A DNA stretch of 64,000 bases from Acidisarcina polymorpha (GTDB taxonomy: Bacteria; Acidobacteriota; Terriglobia; Terriglobales; Acidobacteriaceae). The translations under genes and the position numbers were made by a program. The notes under the pieces were generated by a model. That model was not told the DNA's origin, ran no database searches, and saw nothing but the letters and a program-made list of their open reading frames with translations. Every line of letters starts with the position of its first letter. The first letter of the stretch is position 1. The DNA is taken from the NCBI RefSeq assembly GCF_003330725.1, contig NZ_CP030840.1:5146001-5210000 (forward strand), written 5' to 3'. Positions 34,201 to 35,853 of the stretch are shown here, in pieces.

Positions 34201-34800
34201 TCACTTGAGCGGGCGCGAACCTGCTATGAGTATGTCAACGAGTCTTCTGGCACTTTGCTGCCAGTCAGAGCCGGAGCCCACGTGCGAGACGCCGATCAGC
34301 GCCCGAAGCAGGTCGTATGCATCCAGGTTTCTTCGTAGATCGCCACTCCTCTTAGCCCGTTTCACCAGCCCATCAATCGCGCTCTGAATCATGGCGCGAG
34401 AACCTTCATGAAGCCTGGATGGGCCTCCGGCAATGGTATTGAGAGCGGGCGCAATGATGTGCTTTGCCGCAATGTAATCGACCAGCAGCAGCATCCAGGC
34501 TCGTAGCGCTTCGATAGGGGACATAGTCTCGGTGAAACGGGCCGCGGCCGCTGCGATTTTCTCCACTTCGTTCCGGTAGACACCTTCAATCAGTTCATCG
34601 CGTGTAGGGAAGTGGCGATAGAGGGTACCTACCCCAACACCCGCCTGCTTCGCGATCTCCTCCAGGCTGGCATTGGCGCCTTGTCGAGTGAAGACACCCT
34701 TTGCAACTTCAAGAATGCGCTCGCGGTTGCGCAGCGCGTCTGAACGTAGTTTCCGGGTAGTTGTCGAACGCTTCTTGGTGGTCTCCAAAGTTTTTTGCAA
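34201..34800 (-). CDS. TetR-family transcriptional regulator (199 aa)
   Basis: HTH: AKGVFTRQGANASLEEIAKQ then AGVGVGTLYRHFPTRDELIE. The C-terminal domain (IAAKHIIAPALNTIAGGPSR) resembles the SACE_7040-type TetR_C family. Start is TTG at 34800; a stop lies in frame upstream, and the GGAGG of an adjacent palindrome serves as SD about 10 bases before. The operator thus overlaps its ribosome-binding site. Divergent from the epimerase gene at 34906, which it probably represses with itself. Confidence 0.88.
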   Translation of the reverse strand: MQKTLETTKKRSTTTRKLRSDALRNRERILEVAKGVFTRQGANASLEEIAKQAGVGVGTLYRHFPTRDELIEGVYRNEVEKIAAAAARFTETMSPIEALRAWMLLLVDYIAAKHIIAPALNTIAGGPSRLHEGSRAMIQSAIDGLVKRAKRSGDLRRNLDAYDLLRALIGVSHVGSGSDWQQSARRLVDILIAGSRPLK

Positions 34801-34802
34801 CC

Positions 34803-34844
34803 GGAGGCTGCCTCCAATTATCTACTCATACGGAGGCTGCCTCC
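34803..34844. promoter_or_regulatory. Double perfect palindrome GGAGGCTGCCTCC (two operator copies)
   Basis: GGAGGCTGCCTCC occurs at 34803-34815 and again at 34832-34844, 29 bases apart, in the TetR/epimerase divergent interval. Each copy is a perfect 6+1+6 palindrome. The copy nearer the TetR gene covers its SD. A related sequence (GAGGCCTGCCTCC, 35827-35839) precedes the next gene, 35900. Predicted binding site of the 34201-34800 regulator. Confidence 0.75.
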
Positions 34845-34905
34845 ATTTGAGTCGAGGCTGCATCCTTTCGTCAATCTTAGCTCGAATGAGATTAGGGAGG
34901 CACAT

Positions 34906-35790
34906 ATGCGCGTATTCGTCACTGGAGCCACCGGATTCATCGGTTCCGCAGTCGTGAAAGAACTCGTCGGCGCAGGCCATCAGGTAGTTGGAATGACACG
35001 ATCAGACGCTGGCGCAAAGTCGCTTGAAGTCGCAGGTGCGCAGGCGCATCGAGGCGATTTAGAGGACCTGGAAAGTCTGCGCAGCGGAGCAGCCGCGACT
35101 GATGCCGTCATCCACACTGCGTTCTGGCATGACTGGACAAGATTTGCGGAGGCCTGCGAGCTGGACAGGCGCGCCATCGAGACCATCGGCGCCGTGCTCC
35201 AGGGTTCGAGCCGTCCGTTCATCGTCAGTTCCGGAGTCGGAGTGGCTCAGGGCCGCGCCGCCACCGAGGACGATCCGCCGCTTTCTTCCCCATCCCTTCC
35301 TCGCGTATCAGAGACGACGGCCGTCGCTCTCATGGAGCGCGGAGTCCACGCGTCTGTGATGCGCTTGCCGCAGGTACACGACACCGTAAAGCAGGGCCTG
35401 GTCACGCCGCTGATTGCGGTGGCTCGCGCTAAGCGAGTCTCGGCGTACATTGGCGAAGGTTACAACCGCTGGCCCGCAGCGCATATTTCGGATGTCGCGC
35501 GCCTCTACCTGCTTGCTCTGGAGAAGGGCACGGCCGGAGCCCGTTACCACGCGGTTGCAGAAGAGGGAGTGGCGCTCAAAGACATCGCCACCGCTATCGG
35601 CCGAGGGCTGAGTGTGCCCGTCGTTTCCATTCCGCAGGAACAAGCCCAGGAACATTTCGGCTTCCTCGGGTTCTTCGCGGGGAGGGACCCTCTGACCTCG
35701 AGCGCGCAGACGCGTGCAAAGCTCGGATGGAACCCCACAGGCCCCACCCTGCTCACCGATCTCGGGAACATGCGTTATTCCGAGATCTGA
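34906..35790 (+). CDS. NAD(P)-dependent epimerase/dehydratase, extended SDR (294 aa)
   Basis: Rossmann motif VFVTGATGFIGSAVVKEL (GxxGxxG, residues 3-20) and VVGMTRSD strand 2. The usual catalytic YxxxK is not obvious: the region FIVSSGVGVAQGRAATEDD has the Ser strand, but the following segment lacks a clear Tyr-x3-Lys. This is typical of atypical extended SDRs, some of which act as dihydroflavonol reductase-like or structural NAD binders. Start ATG 34906 has GGGAGG at good spacing. Regulated by the divergent TetR gene; an SDR follows at 35900. Confidence 0.82.
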   Translation: MRVFVTGATGFIGSAVVKELVGAGHQVVGMTRSDAGAKSLEVAGAQAHRGDLEDLESLRSGAAATDAVIHTAFWHDWTRFAEACELDRRAIETIGAVLQGSSRPFIVSSGVGVAQGRAATEDDPPLSSPSLPRVSETTAVALMERGVHASVMRLPQVHDTVKQGLVTPLIAVARAKRVSAYIGEGYNRWPAAHISDVARLYLLALEKGTAGARYHAVAEEGVALKDIATAIGRGLSVPVVSIPQEQAQEHFGFLGFFAGRDPLTSSAQTRAKLGWNPTGPTLLTDLGNMRYSEI

Positions 35791-35822: not shown

Positions 35823-35853
35823 ACAGAGGCCTGCCTCCACTGCTGGCCTCTGT
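35823..35853 (+). terminator. Hairpin between epimerase and SDR genes
   Basis: ACAGAGGCC (35823-35831) pairs perfectly with GGCCTCTGT (35845-35853), 9-bp stem and 13-base loop. No T-run follows, so it may attenuate rather than terminate, and it overlaps an operator-like sequence. Confidence 0.4.

Follow-up and report, generated by a model that had tools for sequence, protein, structure and literature searches.

Tandem palindromes between a TetR-family gene and a divergent oxidoreductase gene of Acidisarcina polymorpha: probable operators whose half-site letters covary with two residues of the recognition helix

The window, i.e., the whole 64,000-nucleotide stretch of Acidisarcina polymorpha DNA analysed here, contains a tetR gene and a divergent gene encoding an oxidoreductase, and the 105-bp gap between them holds two copies of the same palindrome. 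The sequence GGAGGCTGCCTCC occurs there in two exact copies whose starts are 29 bp apart (Table 1), as the original prediction of two identical 13-bp palindromes 29 bases apart had described. The wording "perfect 13-bp palindrome" applies to the two 6-bp arms of each copy and not to the one central base between them, which cannot be symmetric. A lone palindromic 13-mer is no signal, because the 20 sequences of this form in the 64-kb window are close to the simulated mean of 19.2. An identical pair of palindromes not more than 60 bp apart, in turn, was found once in the window vs in none of 200 first-order Markov simulations, and a search of the genome (7.6 Mb, 5 contigs, 96.4% complete) located GGAGGCTGCCTCC at the two window positions only. 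A tandem-operator divergon has this arrangement, with a pair of operator-like palindromes separating a regulator gene from its divergent target, and we consider that the pair very probably represents the DNA binding sites of the adjacent TetR-type repressor itself.

Table 1. Coordinates in the window of the genes, predicted operators and predicted promoters discussed in the text.
Feature	Position	Strand or reading	Remarks
Operator O2, tetR-proximal (predicted)	34802..34816, core 34803-34815	tetR strand reads TGGAGGCAGCCTCCG	Conserved palindrome
Operator O1, tetR-distal (predicted)	34831..34845, core 34832-34844	tetR strand reads TGGAGGCAGCCTCCG	Conserved palindrome
Degenerate third copy CGAGGCTGCATCC	34853..34865		Probably no separate site; 2 mismatches
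Predicted tetR promoter	34845..34874	-	Putative: TTGACG 34874-34869, 18 bp, TCAAAT 34850-34845, abuts O1
Predicted divergent-gene promoter	34795..34824	+	Putative: TTGCAA 34795-34800, O2 spacer, TTATCT 34818-34823 or TATCTA 34819-34824
TetR-family regulator, 199 codons	34201..34800	-	Start uncertain: TTG 34800 or TTG 34788
Val57 and Gly58 codons, recognition helix	34627..34632	-	Residue 57 covaries with half-site position 6, residue 58 with position 4
NAD(P)-dependent epimerase-type SDR oxidoreductase, presumed target	34906..35790	+	PF01370, 3.5e-17

The tetR gene encodes a protein with an N-terminal helix-turn-helix domain (TetR_N, PF00440; 5e-13, 49 bits vs a cut-off of 24) and an SbtR-like C-terminal domain (PF21597; 2.3e-12, 47.5 bits vs a cut-off of 27). 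Its predicted structure (mean pLDDT 85.8, residues 1-13 below 50) has the all-helical TetR fold, the best structural match among the chains compared being SCO0520 of Streptomyces coelicolor (2q24; Z 21.8, rmsd 1.9, 171 residues aligned). SCO0520 is the closest solved structure also at the sequence level (E 2.7e-41, 43% identity); its helix reads GVGSGTLYRNF, and the portion of PMC4418694 available to us names no operator for it. Concerning the other side of the gap, four of the five divergent ORFs of relatives that were tested with profiles encode an SDR or an aldo/keto reductase and the fifth, the short ORF of L012, gave no family; the remaining enzyme types were assigned by eye from the N termini. 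According to extracts of a survey of Streptomyces, 250 of 372 TetR-family genes are divergent from a neighbour, divergent enzyme genes less than 200 bp away are likely targets, and enzymes make up 60% of all likely targets (Ahn et al., 2012; PMC3511530).

Orthologous genes were found to keep the sites in their upstream regions, where absence would have spoken against a binding function. A search with the TetR protein in 250 genomes of the same family (Acidobacteriaceae) found relatives in 64 of them, and 68 upstream regions were counted, which include the window's own region and that of its paralogue L033 and leave out five distant paralogues (L034, L035, L077-L079) and the matches G107:C62, G226, and G212. 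Our first pairing rule was lenient and gave a pair in every region; under strict rules, two inverted repeats with at least 5/6 arm pairs are present in 59 of the 68 regions, and with at least 4/6 arm pairs in 64. The downstream (proximal) site has at least 5/6 arm pairs in 67/68 regions, although in L049 the site counted as downstream is actually the distal one. The family consensus is CGGAGAnnnTCTCCG, of which the CGGAGG form of the window is a variant, and the site columns are far better conserved than the intervening bases, promoter-like elements excepted. As a bare pattern, two sites 10-30 bp apart occur in 66/250 family genomes vs 4/250 for the reversed control; among the matches listed, some of these 66 genomes match in apparent coding stretches and not beside tetR. 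This conservation, together with the placement on promoter-like signals described below, supports the claim that the palindromes are the DNA-binding sites of the 34201-34800 protein, as judged from the sequences compared.

Tandem sites upstream of tetR were also observed in the distant paralogues, being of the CGGAACATTGTTCCG type in L034, L077, L078, and L079, and of the CGGAGCA..GCTCCG type in L035. We have dropped the idea of a genome-wide regulon and claim no further target: a scan of the own genome for CGGAGR-nnn-YCTCCG with at most one mismatch gave at least 200 forward matches vs at least 100 for the reversed control.

The start-to-start distance between O1 and O2 is 29 bp in 25 of the 68 regions, 30 bp in 11, and 34 bp in 12. 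The two preferred spacings, 29-30 bp and 34 bp, differ by half a turn of the helix, which speaks against a fixed dimer-dimer contact, while each site keeps its phase relative to its own promoter-like element. On the tetR strand, TTGAC lies upstream of O1 in 50/68 regions (28-29 bp ahead in 46/68), and TARAR directly abuts O1 in 51/68. These elements are likely to form the tetR promoter, whose transcription start would then fall in O1. The proximal site belongs to a rigid block, GATAAC-O2-GTTGCAA, in which TTKCA follows O2 in 61/68 regions and ATAA (tetR strand) precedes it in 52/68. It is plausible that TTGCAA and TTATCT or TATCTA, separated by 17-18 bp that include O2, are the promoter of the enzyme gene. 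A strict consensus promoter scan of 34700-35000 found no promoter. The suggestion that the palindromes cover the tetR promoter agrees with these data, in the sense that the sites lie on conserved promoter-like signals from which the promoters are predicted.

The sites themselves, their conservation, their place and the covariation described below can be read directly from the genomes, and from them a mechanism can be proposed. The adjacent TetR protein would recognize tandem operators of 15 bp each, with TGGAGG-CAG-CCTCCG as the tetR-strand sequence, and we infer that one dimer would occupy each of them. Since O1 would abut the tetR promoter and O2 would occupy the spacer of the divergent oxidoreductase promoter, flanked by its -35-like and -10-like elements, one repressor would shut both its own gene and that of the divergent enzyme. 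The repressor would be released by a small-molecule ligand, which may be an enzyme substrate or a compound related to one. The letters of the half-sites would be set by the recognition helix, with Val57 reading position 6 and Gly58 reading position 4. Taken as a whole, i.e., tandem operators, repression of itself and of the divergent gene, release by a ligand, and a helix code, we hold this proposal with high confidence.

The repeats might instead work at the RNA level and attenuate or terminate transcription in the tetR leader, since the window RNA can form a stem of 10 pairs and an A/T-rich stretch follows the site in relatives. However, this stretch does not directly follow the stem and is A-rich in the window, the terminator scan of 34700-35000 returned none, and the changes in the arms track the residues of the recognition helix, which is not expected of an RNA element. 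An attenuator was accordingly dropped as highly improbable.

A second function in RNA had been attributed to the proximal palindrome, namely, that it contains the Shine-Dalgarno (SD) sequence of a TTG-started tetR, so that DNA binding and translation signals would share bases. In the window itself this is possible: a GGAGG within O2 lies 10 nt ahead of TTG 34800, which may be the tetR start, and the ATG has been lost; TTG 34788 may be the start as well. At the place of the ATG start of the nearest relatives L004 and L259, the window tetR has ACC, and only TTG candidates are present. As a general feature, the sharing lacks support. A TTG exists at this place in 54/68 regions and is in frame with tetR in 19 of them (open in 16), i.e., in about one third, and therefore at about chance level, whereas an in-frame ATG lies 13-34 nt beyond O2 in 58/68 regions. 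In L259, the nearest relative, with 90% identity over the compared part, the matching place has GTG, that frame contains a stop, and an ATG lies downstream. TTG 34800 is moreover one half of the palindromic and conserved TTGCAA, which is present whether or not it is in frame, and a start codon at working distance from the operator GGAG is not kept in relatives. On the frame counts and the closed frame of L259 we reject operator/SD sharing as a conserved trait; a TTG start, at 34800 or 34788, is a feature of the window's strain, and any SD sharing would at best be local.

A broader form of this idea holds that the 34803 site is both operator and SD of a TTG-started tetR and that binding of the protein, or an RNA hairpin, also controls translation. 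The RNA fold over 81 nt with both sites beats its shuffles (z -3.0), but that over 46 nt with one site is not clear (z -1.4, with 17/200 shuffles as good). In addition, with GATAAT (34822-34817) as the -10, transcription would begin within O2 and the SD would be missing from the mRNA. With the frame counts also standing against it, we regard translational control as unlikely, and repression at the DNA level remains the preferred reading of both sites.

The third similar sequence said to precede the next gene is a weak candidate whether the copy at 34853 or that at 35826 is meant, and we have dropped a third operator at either place. A counterpart of CGAGGCTGCATCC exists in L004 and L259, the two nearest relatives, and in the remaining upstream listings, which were inspected by eye and not counted, none was noticed. 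The sequence GAGGCCTGCCTCC at 35826-35838, ahead of the 35900 gene, forms part of an inverted repeat (35823-35853) between the two SDR genes, composed of ACAGAGGCC, 13 nt, and GGCCTCTGT, that was not seen in the matching stretch of any of the nine relatives inspected.

The link between this regulator and these sites rests on the covariation of helix residues with site letters. Sites were called with the half-site CGGAGA, leaving positions 4 and 6 free and requiring 7 of the 8 other named arm bases. After removing 45 duplicates as well as L267 and L281 from 246 loci (L036-L039 were not entered), 199 remained, of which 25 without a good site stand outside the count, leaving 174 non-redundant loci. 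These 25 loci comprise four distant paralogues, the nearer relatives L116 and L126, and 19 proteins with 39-45% identity that carry Ile57 or Val57. At 170 of the 174 loci, the half-sites have mostly G at position 6 when residue 57 is Ile or Val and lack such a majority when it is any other residue. Ala58 goes with a majority of G at position 4 in all 12 Ala58 loci and in 0/162 others, i.e., with 174/174 loci concordant. The rule was first seen on 132 loci, and the 42 added later fit it in 42/42 cases at both positions, these being loci of the same family, many of them near kin of earlier ones, with one Ile57 and three Ala58 among them.

Four loci are discordant at residue 57. L059 has Val57 but GGAGA sites, and the second "site" of L180 looks spurious. 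The other two, L129 and L176 (Komagataeibacter and Gluconobacter), have Ile57 but half-sites that are mostly GGAGC; in these exceptions, another residue may also help to determine the site letters. Among near neighbours, the window has Val57 with GGAGG and L259 has Ile57 with G in 3/4 half-sites; the sister L004 has Ala57, yet G in 2/4 half-sites, and this counts against the helix-operator link. L125 (Bradyrhizobium sp. LTSP849) has Ala57 and GGAGA and is grouped with Ile57/GGAGG proteins on a branch with 92% SH-aLRT. Three of the four Ser57-Gly58 loci (L074, L206, and L280) have sites that are mixed at position 4. On the tree, there are four changes per trait, with three and one independent pairs on supported branches; because the switches are so few, a sign test cannot reach significance and shared descent stays a statistical alternative.

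It could be argued that the sites belong to another regulator and that the neighbouring TetR is incidental, given that the link to the adjacent gene is predicted from sequence and that the genome has related TetR paralogues with similar sites. Against this, the site letters follow the helix residues of this very gene, and they do so within one genome, where L003 (Val57) has GGAGG and L033 (Ala57) has mixed GGAGA, GGAGT, and GGAGG half-sites. We give this alternative hardly any credit, and the adjacent TetR protein is retained as the presumed regulator that binds both palindromes.

Through the shared TLY motif and a table in PMC2723105, residues 57 and 58 of the window protein correspond to Gln38 and Pro39 of TetR and to Gln53 and Ala54 of AmtR, and in the parts of the literature accessible to us these equivalents touch operator bases (PMC2723105, and for TetR also PMC7102968). 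The same source, as far as it was available, cites a change of Pro39 in TetR that alters affinity and specificity (Helbl and Hillen, 1998). It also gives AmtR Ala54, the equivalent of residue 58, a minor weight for affinity and specificity (PMC2723105), which counts against residue 58 reading position 4. Those studies deal with TetR mutants (Helbl and Hillen, 1998) or, in the case of AmtR, a single protein, whereas the loci compared here form a natural operator-helix series.

The distribution of the two residues among paralogues was also analyzed. A regulator was called switched when it carries Ala58 or Ile/Val57, and 111 genomes had typed copies. Switched and unswitched copies occur together in 9 of the 15 genomes that hold a switched regulator, whereas, of the 96 genomes with unswitched copies only, 3 have two or more of them (Fisher p 1.8e-7, shared descent ignored), all copy numbers being "at least" values that come from searches with different cut-offs, in genomes whose drafts may hide copies. 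In this first count, L267 was taken as unswitched though its helix is outside the pattern, L059 (G221) was taken as switched by its helix despite its GGAGA sites, and G107 and G679 entered without their partial second copies. A recount with the doubtful cases set against the idea gave 8/15 vs 5/96 (p 1.4e-5, shared descent again ignored). The genome of the window is among the nine, its paralogue L033 being 66% identical and facing another SDR gene. That one or two changes in the helix (Ala/Pro to Ile/Val at 57, Gly to Ala at 58) and matching changes in the half-sites have repeatedly made insulated copies after duplication is a tentative idea, to which we give somewhat less than an even chance.

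The site pair is an ordinary TetR divergon with tandem operators and not an exotic element. In the TetR-tetA type divergons, too, a regulator gene points away from a gene for an enzyme or a pump, palindromic operators lie between the two, and autoregulation is expected; the window differs from them in the operator letters and in having an oxidoreductase in place of a pump. MAB_4384 of Mycobacterium abscessus (5ovy) is a related regulator (E 2.7e-18) which, according to the extracts consulted of PMC5895659, binds, as two dimers per operator, to a palindrome located between divergent genes. That system, as described there, has one 27-bp palindrome and an efflux pump, whereas the window has two separate 15-bp palindromes and an SDR. 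Comparative genomics of the LacI family (PMC4052901, seen in excerpt) likewise tied regulators to motifs across genomes, with paralogues and co-evolution among its themes, in another regulator family. A literature search for TetR with the exact 13-15-mer site words found no report. Papers on TetR paralogue crosstalk and specificity, judged by title and abstract start, included none on this helix-operator series, and a search combining Acidobacteria, TetR, and operator gave, among the matches listed, none that concerns an acidobacterial TetR by its title.

The added value of this locus is thus the natural series to which it belongs, in which changes at two helix residues are matched by changes at two operator bases, as a small readable code. 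The TetR subgroup that carries it is found in Acidobacteriaceae and in several Proteobacteria. Such a code predicts operators from protein sequence and offers candidate orthogonal repressor/operator pairs. Our results suggest that the part worth following is the helix/operator series and its link to the paralogues, with insulation as a lead that the code makes testable by single-residue swaps. If insulation is true, the Val57/GGAGG regulator of the window and its Ala57 paralogue would each control their own oxidoreductase without cross-talk.
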